Part shown: positions 3,276-14,950 of the stretch, piece after piece
Position numbering within the stretch: the stretch's first letter is position 1
How the letters are laid out: each line of letters opens with the position of its first letter
Source of the DNA: Bacteroidales bacterium UBA1733
Lineage (GTDB): Bacteria; Bacteroidota; Bacteroidia; Bacteroidales; UBA3663
Length of the DNA: 14,950 nucleotides
NCBI GenBank assembly: GCA_002315795.1
Contig: DCIF01000134.1
Location: forward strand, 7,736-22,685
Direction: 5' to 3'
The notes under the pieces: generated by a model
Seen by the model: only the letters and a program-made list of their open reading frames with translations
Told to the model about the DNA's origin: nothing
Databases searched by the model: none
Program-made: the position numbers and the translations under genes

Positions 3276-4664
3276 TTACTTATTTTTGATAATTTGTGCC
3301 ATGAATTCAGCCTCGCTGACAATCTTATCGCCAACGAATGCGTAACCCTTCATCTGTGCAATGCCACGACGAAGTGGTGTCATGAAGCTGACGTGGAAAA
3401 CCAGTGTATCACCAGGGACAACTTTCTGGCGGAACTTCACATTGTCGATCTTCATGAAATAGGTTGAGTAGCGCTCTGGTTCATCGACACAACCAAGTAC
3501 AAGAATACCAGAACACTGAGCCATGGCCTCGACCTGAAGTACACCTGGCATTACGGGTTCTTCAGGGAAGTGGCCCACGAAGAATGGTTCGTTGGCGGTG
3601 ACGTTCTTGATACCGACTACGAAATCATTTGGTTCGAGTCTGGTGACTTTGTCAACCAACTGCATAGGGTAACGGTGAGGCAACATGCTCTTGATGGCGA
3701 TGTTGTCATAGAGTGGCGCTGCGTTTGGATCATAGACAGGTGCCTGGATCTCGGTGCGCTTCATGTCCTTACGAACAGCACGTGCCAACTTGTTGTTCAT
3801 GCCATGGCCAGGACGAGTCACGATGACACGACCTTCGATGAACTTGCCGATAAGAGCAAGGTCACCAATGATGTCGAGCAACTTGTGGCGAGCTGGCTCA
3901 TTGTCCCACTGGAGTGGACGCTTCTGAACATATCCAAGCTTCTCGGCTGATGGTGCTTCACTACCGATGGCAGCAGCCAACTGGTCGAGCTGTTCCTGTG
4001 GAACGATCTGATCGTAGATGACCATGGCATTGTCAAGGTCACCACCCTTGATGAGGTTCGCAGCAAGGAGAGGCTGGATCTCACGGACGAAAACGAAAGT
4101 GCGAGCTGCAGCCACCTGCTCAGCGAAGTCTGCAACATCATTCAGAACAGCAAACTGGTTGTTGAGTACCGGACTTGGATAATCGACGAAAGTAGTTACA
4201 GAGAAGTGGTCATCAGGGAAGATCTCCAGCTTCACGCCGTTCTCCTCGTCAACCACCTCGTATTTCTTCTGGATACGGAAAATGTCACGCTTCGGCTCCT
4301 GTTCTACGATGCCAGCCTTAGCAATTGCCTCTACAAATGGCTGAGCAGAACCGTCAAGGATAGGCATCTCCGGAGCATTCACCTGAATAAGACAGTTGTC
4401 GATACCTGCACAGTAGAGCGCTGCCATAGCATGTTCGATGGTGCTGACTACGATGTCTCCTTTCTTGACTACAGTGCCACGATTGGTAGCTGCTACATTG
4501 TCGGCAATAGCTTCGATGACAGGTTGGCCTTCAAGGTCAATACGCTGAATGTTATAACCGGTGTTTGCTTCTGCCGGACAGAAAGTAGCAGTGATCTCAA
4601 GGCCTGTATGCAAGCCTTTGCCTTGGAGGGTAAATGCCTCCTTGAGTGTCTGTTGATGTTGCAT
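3276..4664 (-). CDS. lpxC-fabZ: Bifunctional LpxC deacetylase / FabZ dehydratase fusion
   Basis: The product has 462 residues and two enzymes in one chain. Residues 1 to about 305 are LpxC, the zinc UDP-3-O-acyl-GlcNAc deacetylase that commits substrate to lipid A: GKGLHTG (15-21), STIEHAMAAL (74-83, with E77 and zinc ligand H78), RHKLLDIIGDL (259-269, zinc ligands H260 and D264) and RPGHGMNNKL (284-293, H287). Residues about 315-462 are FabZ, the 3-hydroxyacyl-ACP dehydratase of fatty acid synthesis: MLPHRYPMQLVDKV (327-340) and NEPFFVGHFPEEPVMPG (358-374), with catalytic H365 and E379 in VEAMAQ. Both halves keep every catalytic residue I can name. The fusion is known in Bacteroidota. It joins two enzymes that draw on the same hydroxyacyl-ACP pool. 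It lies 40 bases after lpxD and 10 before lpxA. Confidence 0.97.
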   Translation of the reverse strand: MQHQQTLKEAFTLQGKGLHTGLEITATFCPAEANTGYNIQRIDLEGQPVIEAIADNVAATNRGTVVKKGDIVVSTIEHAMAALYCAGIDNCLIQVNAPEMPILDGSAQPFVEAIAKAGIVEQEPKRDIFRIQKKYEVVDEENGVKLEIFPDDHFSVTTFVDYPSPVLNNQFAVLNDVADFAEQVAAARTFVFVREIQPLLAANLIKGGDLDNAMVIYDQIVPQEQLDQLAAAIGSEAPSAEKLGYVQKRPLQWDNEPARHKLLDIIGDLALIGKFIEGRVIVTRPGHGMNNKLARAVRKDMKRTEIQAPVYDPNAAPLYDNIAIKSMLPHRYPMQLVDKVTRLEPNDFVVGIKNVTANEPFFVGHFPEEPVMPGVLQVEAMAQCSGILVLGCVDEPERYSTYFMKIDNVKFRQKVVPGDTLVFHVSFMTPLRRGIAQMKGYAFVGDKIVSEAEFMAQIIKNK

Positions 4665-11187: not shown

Positions 11188-11230
11188 TCGCTACACTATA
11201 GATCGAACAGGAAATTTAATATTTCTATTG

Positions 11231-11311
11231 AACAAGGAATTTAAGGAATTGAAAGAATCTTTCGGATGCGGAGTTTCTTTTAATTCCTTAAATTCTTGTT
11301 TCTTTTTTTTT
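11231..11311 (+). terminator. korAB intrinsic terminator
   Basis: AACAAGGAATTTAAGGAATT (11231-11250) pairs with AATTCCTTAAATTCTTGTT (11282-11300) over 19 base pairs with one bulged G. Next to this the inner bases GAAAGAA and TTCTTTT extend the stem partly. A T-rich tail (11301-11311) follows directly. It lies 43 bases after the korB stop. Confidence 0.88.
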
Positions 11312-11373
11312 CGGACTTCAATGATTTAGTTATAAAGATTGTGTGTCTTTTGCCTTAAAATACACCAAAAAAC

Positions 11374-11387
11374 ATGTTATACAACAT
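11374..11387. promoter_or_regulatory. Candidate operator, palindrome upstream of the EF-G paralogue promoter
   Basis: ATGTT (11374-11378), four bases, then AACAT (11383-11387) form a perfect inverted repeat. Its centre lies about 70 bases before the expected transcription start, a position used by CRP-type activators. In Bacteroides thetaiotaomicron the gene for EF-G2 is activated under carbon limitation by the regulator Cur (BT4338). That this repeat binds a Cur homologue is inference only. Confidence 0.3.
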
Positions 11388-11413
11388 AAAATTGTAAAAA
11401 ATAACGGTAGAAA

Positions 11414-11445
11414 TTTTTCCTAATTCGTATTTTTATATATATTTG
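11414..11445 (+). promoter_or_regulatory. Promoter of the EF-G paralogue
   Basis: A full-consensus -7 box TATATTTG (11438-11445) is preceded, at the usual 20-base spacing, by TTTT (11414-11417) in place of TTTG. The imperfect upstream box would fit a promoter that relies on an activator. Expected start of transcription is near 11452. Confidence 0.6.
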
Positions 11446-11527: not shown

Positions 11528-13681
11528 ATGAAAGTCTACAGTTCTAAAGAAATCAAGAACATTGCCCTGCTTGGCAATGATGGTTCAGGTAAGACCACCC
11601 TCACCGAGACACTTCTCTACATTGCTGGCCAGATTGGTCGCAAGGGTCGCATCACTCAGCAGAGTACGGTCAGCGACTATTTCCCAGTTGAGAAAAATTA
11701 TGGCTATTCAGTATTCAGTACTGTATTCCATGTAGAGTGGAACGGTAAGAAGCTCAACATCATTGACTGTCCAGGTATGGACGACTTCGTAGGTCAGGCC
11801 ATCACCGCCATGAGTGTGACCGATACTACCATCCTTCTGATCAATGGCTCTGTAGGTCCAGAGGTTGGTACACAGAACCACTTCCGCTATACTGAGAAAC
11901 TCCAGAAACCAGTCATCTTCCTCGTCAATCAGCTTGATAGCAATGAGTGCGACTATGACACCATCGTAGAGGATCTCCAGTTGAATTATGGTTCGAAGGC
12001 AATGCCAGTGCAGTATCCTGTCGAGACTGGCGATAACTTCCATCAGTTGATCGACGTCATTCTGATGAAGCAGTTGACTTACGGACCAGACGGTGGCACT
12101 CCAACGATCGAAGATATTCCTGCTGACCAGATGGATAAGGCACAGGAGATGCACAAAGCACTCGTGGAAGCTGCAGCTGAGAACGATGAGGGTCTCATGG
12201 AGAAGTTCTTCGAGACTGAGCAGCTCACTGAGGATGAGATGCGTGAAGGTATCCGAAAGGGTATGGTTACCCGTTCCATTTTCCCAATCTTCTGCGTTTG
12301 CGCAGGCAAGAACATGGGTGTAGGCCGTTTGATGGAGTTCCTTGGCAATGTCGTTCCATTTGTTGACGAGATGCCAGCTGTTCACAATTCTCGTGGAGAA
12401 GAGGTTCCTGTTGATGCTGCTGCTCCAACCAGCCTCTATTTCTTCAAGACGGGTGTTGAGCCACATATTGGTGAGGTTCAGTACTTCAAGGTGATGAGTG
12501 GTACCATCAAGGAAGGTGACGATCTTGTAAATGCTGATCGTGGTACCACAGAGCACATGGCTCAGCTCTTTGTCTGCTCTGGTGCAAACCGTGAGAAGGT
12601 GAGTGAGCTCCAGGCTGGTGATATCGGCTGTGCTGTCAAGTTGAAGGATGTTCGTACCGGCAATACTCTGAATGCAAGTGCTGTTGATCATAAGTTCAAC
12701 TTCGTGAAGTATCCTGCTGCTAAATATACACGTGCTATCACTGCTAAGAACACACAGGAGACTGAGAAGATGATGATGGCTCTGACACGCATGCGCCTCG
12801 AGGATCCTACTTGGGTCGTTGAGCAGAGCAAGGAGCTTCGTCAGATTCTCGTTCACGGCCAGGGTGAGTTCCACCTCCGTACCCTCAAGTGGCGTCTTGA
12901 GAACCTCGATAAGGTACAGATCGACTTCGCACCACAGCGTATTCCATATCGTGAAACCATTACTAAGGCTGCACGTGCTGACTATCGTCATAAGAAGCAG
13001 TCTGGTGGCGCTGGTCAGTTCGGTGAGGTTCATCTGATTGTCGAGCCATACTTTGATGGTATGGAAGATCCTGTTGTTTATAACATGCAGGGCAAGGAGT
13101 ACCGCGTGACCATGAAGGGTAAGGAAGAAATTGAGCTCCCATGGGGTGGTAAGCTCGTCTTTATCAACTCTGTCGTAGGTGGCGCTATTGATAACCGCTT
13201 CATGCCAGCTATTCTTAAGGGTATCCAGCAGTGTCTGGAGCAGGGCCCTCTGACCGGTTCTTACGCTCGTGATGTACGCGTTGTTGTCTATGATGGTAAG
13301 ATGCATCCAGTCGATTCTAACGAGCTTTCGTTCATGTTGGCTGCACGTCAGGCTTTCAGCGAGGCATTCCGCAATGCTGGTCCTAAGATCCTCGAGCCAA
13401 TCTATGACGTTGAGGTATTCGTTCCTGGTGATAAGATGGGTGATGTGATGAGCGATCTCCAGAACCACCGTGGTATGATTATCGGTATGGGTGCTGAGTC
13501 AGGCTACCAGAAGCTTCAGGCTAAGGTGCCACTGAGTGAGATGGCCGATTACTCTACCACTCTTAGTTCTCTGACCCAGGGTGCAGCTTCGTTCATTATG
13601 AAGTTTGCAAGCTATGAGCTTACTCCAACAGACGTTCAGAACAAGTTGATTGCTGCATACGAAGCAGAAGCAAAAAACTGA
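11528..13681 (+). CDS. fusA2: EF-G paralogue of the EF-G2 type, probably unable to hydrolyse GTP
   Basis: The product has 717 residues with all five EF-G domains. The P-loop is GNDGSGKTT (16-24), but other GTPase motifs are altered: switch I has YGYSV (59-62 region) where EF-G has RGITI; G3 is DCPGMDDF (80-87) instead of DTPGHVDF, so the catalytic His is M84; G4 is NQLD (134-137) instead of NKMD. Domain IV keeps HKKQSGGAGQFGEV (488-501) and HPVDSNELSF (593-602), the tip that enters the decoding site, but carries an extra segment of about 26-30 residues near 508-540. Domain V (ILEPIYDVEVFVPGDKMGDV) is normal. This fits EF-G2 of Bacteroides thetaiotaomicron, reported to translocate ribosomes without GTP hydrolysis during carbon starvation and to depend on a 26-residue unique region. 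It is a single-gene unit with its own promoter and terminator. That it is EF-G-related is certain; lack of GTPase is inferred. Confidence 0.93.
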   Translation: MKVYSSKEIKNIALLGNDGSGKTTLTETLLYIAGQIGRKGRITQQSTVSDYFPVEKNYGYSVFSTVFHVEWNGKKLNIIDCPGMDDFVGQAITAMSVTDTTILLINGSVGPEVGTQNHFRYTEKLQKPVIFLVNQLDSNECDYDTIVEDLQLNYGSKAMPVQYPVETGDNFHQLIDVILMKQLTYGPDGGTPTIEDIPADQMDKAQEMHKALVEAAAENDEGLMEKFFETEQLTEDEMREGIRKGMVTRSIFPIFCVCAGKNMGVGRLMEFLGNVVPFVDEMPAVHNSRGEEVPVDAAAPTSLYFFKTGVEPHIGEVQYFKVMSGTIKEGDDLVNADRGTTEHMAQLFVCSGANREKVSELQAGDIGCAVKLKDVRTGNTLNASAVDHKFNFVKYPAAKYTRAITAKNTQETEKMMMALTRMRLEDPTWVVEQSKELRQILVHGQGEFHLRTLKWRLENLDKVQIDFAPQRIPYRETITKAARADYRHKKQSGGAGQFGEVHLIVEPYFDGMEDPVVYNMQGKEYRVTMKGKEEIELPWGGKLVFINSVVGGAIDNRFMPAILKGIQQCLEQGPLTGSYARDVRVVVYDGKMHPVDSNELSFMLAARQAFSEAFRNAGPKILEPIYDVEVFVPGDKMGDVMSDLQNHRGMIIGMGAESGYQKLQAKVPLSEMADYSTTLSSLTQGAASFIMKFASYELTPTDVQNKLIAAYEAEAKN

Positions 13682-13772: not shown

Positions 13773-13801
13773 GTGTTTCTAAGAAAAATTGATTATATTT
13801 G
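13770..13801 (+). promoter_or_regulatory. Promoter of the repeat-tailed membrane protein gene
   Basis: TTTG (13770-13773), 20 bases, then TATATTTG (13794-13801), a full consensus match. Transcription should start near 13808, giving a leader of about 22 bases. The TTTG shares three T bases with the terminator stem of the preceding gene. Confidence 0.75.
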
Positions 13802-13829
13802 CGCGTTTGATATACTGATTTTCGGCACG

Positions 13830-14950
13830 ATGAAATATACTTACCAATTCTTCTTACTTCTGAGCCTTGTTTGTAGCTTGTCTCTGCTTTCTCCTTTCTC
13901 GTTAAGGGCGGAGTCCCTTGATACATGTTTTGTGGGAATCTGTATTGATAATGCAGAACAGCCTTTTAGCGTGAAACCCGACGCTAAAGGTCAACCGACA
14001 GGCTATCTCACTCGCGATGCTCAGAATAATATTCAACTATACACCAATTGCGCTTTCATTAAGGTTACCAACGAATCGACCAATGAAATGCGTGATAAGC
14101 TGACTGGCGAGTACCGTGTCATTACGTTCAGTAGAGGCAAGACTACGACTTACGATTATCGTCGTGTTGCTACGGGTTCTGAAGTTCGTGAATTCCGTCC
14201 TACTCGTGTGAAGAACATGCAACGCTGTATCTATTTCCGTATTGATAGCGTTAAGAATGCAAAGATTACTTTTGATCTTGAGAATGGCGGTCAGATGGTG
14301 CGTGAGCTCAACGCTCATATTCTTGATGAAAATGCTCCGAAAGAAGCCATTGCTCTGCTCGGAGGGAAAAATGCAGATACTCCTGAAGCGGTAACAGTCC
14401 CTGCCGTCAACCCAAAATCAGATAACACTGCCGCAAAAACACTAGCAGACAAGACTGCAGTAGCAAACGACGAAGAGGAAGGTGCTGCAAAAAAAATTCT
14501 TTTGTGGCTCTTGCTCCTGGCATTTGTGGCTCTTGCTGGCTATCTCAGTTATCGCGAATATCAGAAGCGCACTGTAGCGTCTTCTACTATGGGTAAGCAG
14601 TACAAAGGAGAGGATAAAGCCAAAACTCCTATTATCAAGGCCCCGGTAGCTAAAAATTTGTCAGGAAAGGGAAAAGAGAATCTGATACAGAAACTCGCTG
14701 AGAAAAATGCTGGTGAAACTACATCTGCTCGTAATGTTGCCTCAAGTCCAATGGCTGTTCCTGCAACCTCGGCTCCTGCACCTCAAATAATCGAAAAGAT
14801 TGTTGAGGTCCCAGTGGAAAAGGTTGTCGAGAAGATTATTACCAAGGAGGTCCCTGTTGAGAAGATTATTACCAAGGAGGTCCCTGTCGAGAAGATTGTC
14901 GAAAAGATTGTTACTAAGGAAGTGCCAGTCGAAAAGATCATAGAAAAGAT
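13830..14950 (+). CDS. Unrecognised membrane protein with VPVEK-repeat tail (cut by window end)
   Basis: The frame opens at the ATG at 13830 and stays open to the window end, giving 373 complete codons. Residues 1-27 (MKYTYQFFLLLSLVCSLSLL...RA) look like a signal peptide. Residues about 28-215 form a presumed extracytoplasmic domain with four cysteines in its first part (C33, C38, C74, C133) and no motif I recognise. An acidic stretch NDEEEG is followed by one membrane helix (KKILLWLLLLAFVALAGYLS, about 221-240) and the positive YREYQKR, which predicts that the rest lies in the cytoplasm. Residues about 242-318 are rich in K, A, P and T. From 320 the chain becomes repeats of the type EKIITKEVPVEKI, which continue past the edge. 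The repeats could be an elongated linker or scaffold. I cannot assign a function. The start is supported by the signal peptide and the promoter 29 bases before it. Confidence 0.85.
   Translation, partial: MKYTYQFFLLLSLVCSLSLLSPFSLRAESLDTCFVGICIDNAEQPFSVKPDAKGQPTGYLTRDAQNNIQLYTNCAFIKVTNESTNEMRDKLTGEYRVITFSRGKTTTYDYRRVATGSEVREFRPTRVKNMQRCIYFRIDSVKNAKITFDLENGGQMVRELNAHILDENAPKEAIALLGGKNADTPEAVTVPAVNPKSDNTAAKTLADKTAVANDEEEGAAKKILLWLLLLAFVALAGYLSYREYQKRTVASSTMGKQYKGEDKAKTPIIKAPVAKNLSGKGKENLIQKLAEKNAGETTSARNVASSPMAVPATSAPAPQIIEKIVEVPVEKVVEKIITKEVPVEKIITKEVPVEKIVEKIVTKEVPVEKIIEK
14787..14950 (+). repeat. Coding tandem repeats (VPVEK-type), continuing past the window
   Basis: From residue 320 of the last gene the protein repeats units such as IITKEVPVEK and IVEKIVTKEVPVEK. 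At DNA level, two 30-base units (14829-14858 and 14859-14888) differ by a single T/C at the last base; later units are more diverged. The unit is a multiple of three, so gain or loss of copies would keep the frame. It is a coding minisatellite-like array. Confidence 0.85.

Follow-up and report, generated by a model that had tools for sequence, protein, structure and literature searches.

Does the elongation factor encoded in this stretch of DNA move the ribosome without hydrolysing GTP, and which of its altered residues would account for this? The window, meaning the whole analysed stretch of 14,950 nucleotides, contains an open reading frame at 11528–13681 (plus strand) that begins with ATG and specifies a product of 717 amino acids. 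An earlier note had described this product as a paralogue of elongation factor G (EF-G) with altered GTPase motifs and had likened it to EF-G2 of Bacteroides thetaiotaomicron (BT2167). For the latter, GTP-independent translation has been described (PMC10294740, PMC6989115), and PMC12775393 states that it catalyses translocation without GTP hydrolysis; the title of Han (2023, EMBO J) presents it as lacking GTPase activity. The corresponding gene, fusA2, is needed in the mouse gut and is induced by Cur (PMC6989115).

All five EF-G domains were found in the window protein. It scored 1236.6 bits against the NCBIfam model NF058620 (EFG2_Bacteroid; cut-off 1000) and 489 bits against the canonical EF-G model TIGR00484, below the cut-off of 659.4. 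As this cut-off was missed and the motifs RGITI and DTPGHVDF are absent, an identity as canonical EF-G is ruled out. The top match in the PDB was 7uvp/8dmf (1203 bits, residues 1–714), presumably BT2167 itself; the 7uvp chain carries YGYSV, DCPGSDDF and NQLD. Sequence relatives were taken as the best 80 of 556 matches, a set that is for this reason biased toward close kin. Closest among them was Candidatus Liminaster caballi (88% identity), which is placed in Bacteroidales incertae sedis. A locus titled Christensenellaceae bacterium (L027) codes for an EF-G2 that shares 77% identity with the window protein, and its title likely stems from a mis-binned or mis-named metagenome contig.

An EFG II-lineage protein was present in 109 of 296 Bacteroidota genomes, the set being bounded by an empty interval in the scores between 727 and 566 bits. 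Three of these proteins belong to the EF-G2 group of the window, and the other 106 are referred to as sisters. One gene, listed as both L093 and L010, is common to the sets of 80 and 109. A tree of 64 rows was built from the window protein, 27 hand-picked proteins of the 80 near loci, L091 and L092, 27 of the 106 sisters and seven canonical EF-Gs. The window protein fell into a clade of 11 rows (support 100/100) nested within an EF-G2 group of 30 rows (100/100, stem length 0.56), whose titles name Bacteroides, Prevotellaceae, Bacteroidaceae and unplaced Bacteroidales; the seven canonical EF-Gs fell outside this group. Residues of the EFG II type were found at all six type I positions of the window protein (G16, L25, S61, T308, G352, and K371). 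The reference positions are Gly16, Leu25, Ser61, Thr291, Gly333, and Lys352 in 1WDT numbering, with T308, G352, and K371 equated to the last three by motif on the alignment.

Judged by these comparisons, the gene is an orthologue of Bacteroides EF-G2 (fusA2), a member of the EFG II subfamily, from an uncultured member of the Bacteroidales related to Candidatus Liminaster. The proposal that it and BT2167 are factors of one kind agrees with the NF058620 score and the fully supported EF-G2 group, and the closest match bears out its occurrence outside the genus Bacteroides. The latter cannot be presented as a novelty, because YGYSV was printed in 2011 as a motif of Bacteroidetes EFG II (Margus, Remm, & Tenson, 2011, PMC3150367, as excerpted) and an NCBI family model exists. 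The gene is not decayed, since its frame is intact and dN (0.115–0.125) is low relative to dS (1.26–1.44, saturated) in the four pairwise comparisons that were obtained out of six tried, the other two pairs having indels. A pseudogene is thereby ruled out.

The altered GTPase motifs were all found, on the plus strand, as the earlier note had described them. The P-loop GNDGSGKT (residues 16–23; 11573–11596) retains Lys22 and Thr23. Switch I reads YGYSV (residues 58–62; 11699–11713) in the place of canonical RGITI, with Tyr58 replacing a basic residue; G3 reads DCPGMDDF (residues 80–87; 11765–11788) with Met84 (11777–11779) at the position of the catalytic His; and G4 reads NQLD (residues 134–137; 11927–11938). 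The contrast with canonical motifs was also drawn correctly, as the canonical EF-Gs of two relative genomes (L205 and L200) show AHIDAGKT, RGITI, DTPGHVDF, and NKMD. Two changes were absent from the earlier note. Gly19 replaces the Asp of the canonical P-loop (HIDAGKT), and domain IV carries an insert of 26 residues relative to canonical EF-G (residues 514–539; 13067–13144), the equivalent of which in sister EFG II proteins has 17 residues. Elsewhere domain IV stays close to the canonical form: its loop HKKQSGGAGQF (12989–13021) is near to YKKQSGGRGKF, and the tip GKMHPVDSNE (13295–13324) retains its His.

The replacement of the catalytic His had been read as the mark of a lost GTPase. Methionine occupies this position in the window protein and in the nine relatives closest to it (9/80 of the best 80 of 556), and the remaining relatives carry Ser (67), Ala (2), Thr (1), or Leu (1); none has His (0/80). 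Met84 is thus a trait of the Liminaster clade, found in the window and L001–L009, with Leu in the eleventh clade member (L056). None of the 109 EFG II proteins has the His either: the three of the EF-G2 group carry Ser (2) or Ala (1), and the sisters Tyr (50), Thr (37), Leu (8), Phe (6), Ser (3), Pro (1), or Ala (1). EFG-2 of Thermus thermophilus has Tyr here, and is reported to show an intrinsic GTPase activity above that of EF-G and to be only slightly less active in poly(Phe) synthesis (Margus 2011, PMC3150367, as excerpted). In E. coli EF-G, the exchange H91A slowed ribosome-stimulated hydrolysis about 7-fold and left the intrinsic rate unaffected, and H91Q hydrolysed GTP on the ribosome at about the normal rate (PMC4532990, as excerpted). 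The exchange of His for Met in EF-G2 is not diagnostic of lost GTP hydrolysis, because His is missing throughout both sets as well as from the T. thermophilus protein, a reported GTP hydrolyser. Absence of the catalytic His should therefore no longer be read as the mark of a GTPase-dead elongation factor.

Other features separate EF-G2 from its sisters more sharply. Position 58 of switch I is Tyr in 80/80 relatives (best 80 of 556; YGYSV in 78 and YGYSI in two) and in none of the 106 sisters, which have Arg (59) or Lys (47). G3 reads DCPG in all 80 relatives of the same set, and the Cys occurs in 2/106 sisters. The domain IV insert measures 26 residues in 79 of these 80 relatives, the sole exception (L003) being a row that is incomplete in the alignment, and 17 residues in every sister. 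On the sequences compared, EF-G2 is set apart from the sisters by these three features: the change of switch I Arg/Lys to Tyr, DCPG, and the longer insert. A 26-residue region of the B. thetaiotaomicron protein is reportedly necessary for its function. The position of the canonical P-loop Asp is occupied by Gly in 79 and by Asn in one of the best 80 of 556 relatives, and Asp is found in 2/106 sisters; the P-loop Lys and Thr are retained in all 80. The change in G4 (NQLD in 75/80 relatives of this set) is less telling, as the Lys of G4 is also replaced by Gln, His, or Ala in 46/106 sisters. Of the 15 proteins in the 296 Bacteroidota genomes that exceeded the cut-off of NF058620, 12 (L094–L105) fall among the sister EFG II proteins: they share less than 50% identity with the window protein and have a basic residue in switch I. 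The name "elongation factor G2" of this model may come to be applied to proteins in which GTP hydrolysis persists.

The intact P-loop Lys and Thr, together with Ser61 of the Mg site, would also suit a factor that is an EF-G2 by descent and yet hydrolyses GTP slowly on the ribosome, and thus would be slow and tightly binding rather than GTP-free. The activities of T. thermophilus EFG-2 despite its Tyr, and the roughly 7-fold ribosomal loss of H91A with the intrinsic rate intact, point in the same direction. Against this stand the loss of the basic switch I residue in the EF-G2 group, a residue that all 106 sisters retain, and the title under which the B. thetaiotaomicron protein was published. 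We consider slow hydrolysis unlikely.

The domain IV insert, which is unlike canonical EF-G, and the division of labor between two EF-G paralogues in human mitochondria and Borrelia burgdorferi (Margus 2011, PMC3150367, as excerpted) raise a further alternative, namely that the window protein acts in ribosome recycling or rescue, by ribosome splitting or back-translocation, and not in elongation. The retained tip of domain IV argues against it: its His is present in 79 of the best 80 of 556 relatives, again with the incomplete row of L003 as the sole exception, and in 106/106 sisters, as expected of a working translocase. Since the B. thetaiotaomicron orthologue is moreover described as catalysing translocation (PMC12775393, as excerpted), a role outside elongation appears very improbable. 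That the protein protects ribosomes from tetracycline, as the PDB molecule name of 7uvp/8dmf ("Tetracycline resistance protein TetQ") would suggest, can be discarded with near certainty, and an identity as TetQ is ruled out, by 248.5 bits against NF012153 tet_protect (cut-off 775), 136 bits against the Tet(Q) model (cut-off 1425), and 21% identity to the Tet-type protein L084 of a P. timonensis genome, which retains RGITV and DTPGHMDF. The motifs of 7uvp/8dmf, together with its match to the window protein, assign it to EF-G2 and not to the protection proteins. The genomes of P. timonensis (L084, G001) and B. rodentium (L085, G003) code for Tet-type protection proteins besides EF-G and EF-G2.

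We now turn to the control of the EF-G2 gene. In B. thetaiotaomicron, Cur activates fusA2 (PMC6989115, PMC10294740), and tests of the circuit of EF-G2 and Cur cover this species as well as B. fragilis, B. ovatus, and B. vulgatus (PMC10294740). Both TATGTTnTAnAACATA, as the consensus for Cur, and a proven site at B. thetaiotaomicron fusA2 have been published (PMC6989115, as excerpted). Counted by eye, the proven site deviates from TATGTTnTAnAACATA by two mismatches. A Cur/BT4338-like palindrome, CATGTTATACAACATA, with one mismatch to the consensus lies at 11373–11388 of the window (plus strand), its centre 147 bp 5' of the EF-G2 ATG. The Bacteroidetes −7 consensus is TAnnTTTG. The octamer TATATTTG at 11438–11445 (plus strand), which starts 57 bp 3' of the palindrome centre, fits this consensus, and we take it to be the −7 box.

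The window alone was not striking in this respect: two places with up to three mismatches compare with 0.61 expected, and 23 of 200 shuffles had as many. The weight rests on conservation. A Cur-like site with 0–3 mismatches is present in the window and in each of L001–L009, the nine relatives closest to it, in 10/10 cases at a spacing of 57–58 bp to TAnnTTTG, and L056 shows a site with two mismatches at 58 bp from such a box. In Prevotellamassilia timonensis (L010), a cultured relative, the site deviates by one mismatch. In nine of these ten loci (window and L001–L009, together 127 kb), this is the sole place with no more than two mismatches; the tenth, L003, has a site with three. Sites with up to two mismatches were found in 30/81 EF-G2 upstream regions (the window and the best 80 of 556 relatives), compared to 0.30 expected from dinucleotide shuffles, and upstream of none of the 106 sister genes (0.20 expected). 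The restriction of the palindrome to the group with Tyr58 is a result of the present analysis, and in the openly licensed literature we found no report of it in front of EF-G2 for species other than the four of the Bacteroides type. Genome-wide enrichment of the motif was moderate, with 8, 2, 10, and 8 places in four genomes (28 in total), as compared to 2, 2, 2, and 5 (11) for the reversed motif and 0, 0, 1, and 2 (3) for a scrambled palindrome in the same genomes.

Cur control of EF-G2 is not universal, as no site with up to two mismatches was present in 51 of the 81 upstream regions, nor in L091 and L092, which branch off deepest among the EF-G2 proteins of the tree, carry the protein changes of EF-G2, and have best sites with four and three mismatches, respectively. 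Such a site was also lacking from 23 of the 25 EF-G2 genes of L011–L035, Alloprevotella records included; these genes may be under different control. CRP-like proteins with a common recognition helix were found in G001, G002, and G300 (L216, L217, and L221), and no cNMP-binding regulator was found in G304, one of seven genomes examined. The comparison of recognition helices leaves out L218, L224, L225, L228, and L237, whose reading frames had been assigned wrongly. For the CRP-like proteins L216, L217, and L223, every NCBIfam match was below the cut-off. The role in starvation that the earlier note had proposed gains backing from a candidate Cur-like site in the EF-G2 promoter.

The EF-G2 gene lies downstream of korAB-like genes, named by eye from their open reading frames. 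Between korB and fusA2, a hairpin followed by a T-run (11230–11311, plus strand; −33.7 kcal/mol, z −7.0) is probably a terminator that separates the two units. Neither korA nor korB was found beside EF-G2 in any of 80 related loci (best 80 of 556; flanks of 6 kb at most, and shorter at many loci, with matches shorter than half the query uncounted). An operon with korAB is unlikely in view of the intervening terminator-like hairpin and the missing korA/korB neighbours. The window contained no Rfam family and no tRNA. An open reading frame 3' of EF-G2 (13773–14948), which is open at the window end, has a signal-like N-terminus and, toward the C-terminus, a run of repeats of the type VPVEKI(V/I)EKI(I/V)TKE. 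Another at 3276–4664 resembles, by eye from the sequence, an LpxC-FabZ fusion and lies between LpxA- and LpxD-like genes. Among 14 relative genomes, nine contain a canonical EF-G above the cut-off. The genomes of L001, L002, L003, L004, and L006 do not; all five are metagenome assemblies, and in two of them (L004 and L006) EF-G-like pieces occur at contig ends.

Given its orthology and the published properties of B. thetaiotaomicron EF-G2, the window protein most likely acts as an elongation factor, is induced on starvation, and carries out translocation with no hydrolysis of GTP. Under carbon shortage, a Cur-like regulator of the CRP type would bind the palindrome at 11373–11388 and activate the EF-G2 gene through the −7 box at 11438. 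EF-G2 would then bind ribosomes and shift tRNA and mRNA by one codon by means of the retained domain IV. Owing to the altered switch I, P-loop Asp position, and G3, this step would proceed without GTP hydrolysis, and canonical EF-G would handle translation in fast growth. We have good confidence in this combination of Cur-type activation, GTP-free translocation, and a canonical EF-G for fast growth. The analysis itself establishes the orthology, the changed motifs, the preserved tip of domain IV, and the conservation of site and box in the promoter. We infer that Cur activation, GTP-free translocation, and the need in the gut carry over from B. thetaiotaomicron to the organism of the window; the loss of hydrolysis, and the choice of the residues that would matter for it, follow the same reasoning. 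The EF-G2/Cur starvation circuit would thereby extend toward uncultured Bacteroidales of gut and rumen.

How such a factor may have arisen can be outlined tentatively. GTP-free translocation could have evolved in two steps, with the His lost early across EFG II, and switch I, the Thr of G3, and the domain IV insert changed later on the single long EF-G2 branch, where Cur-type starvation control would have been added then or soon after. This is a possible course of events and a rather doubtful one. If true, the change in the enzyme and the starvation switch would be one evolutionary package, and the set of switch I residues, not the His, would decide on hydrolysis. As all EFG II proteins examined lack the His, EF-G2 and the sisters with a basic switch I residue offer a clean comparison for hydrolysis.

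Among known systems, canonical EF-G (EFG I, TIGR00484) shares with the window protein the five-domain architecture and the domain IV tip; unlike it, the window protein has no RGITI, DTPGHVDF, NKMD, or P-loop Asp, and it stays below the model's cut-off (489 vs. 659.4 bits). The mycobacterial EF-G2 (FusA2), which resembles the window protein as an EFG II paralogue with an altered G2, is reported to show no ribosome-dependent GTPase activity (Seshadri 2009). Its G2 reads QQRSV (PMC8446442, as excerpted), and it belongs to a different EFG II sub-subgroup (Margus 2011, PMC3150367, as excerpted). With EFG II and T. thermophilus EFG-2 (1WDT/2DY1), the window protein has in common the six type I positions and the missing catalytic His; it differs in lacking the basic switch I residue, in DCPG instead of DTPG or DAPG, in a domain IV insert longer than in the 106 Bacteroidota sisters, and in the presence of a Cur-like site. 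The closest counterpart is the EF-G2/fusA2 of B. thetaiotaomicron (BT2167, NF058620, and presumably 7uvp/8dmf), which it resembles in full-length orthology, in YGYSV, DCPG, and NQLD, and in the candidate Cur-like site of the promoter. It differs from this counterpart in its genus, in Met84 (Ser in 7uvp and in 67 of the best 80 of 556 relatives), and in the spacing of 57–58 bp to TAnnTTTG that characterizes promoters of the Liminaster clade.
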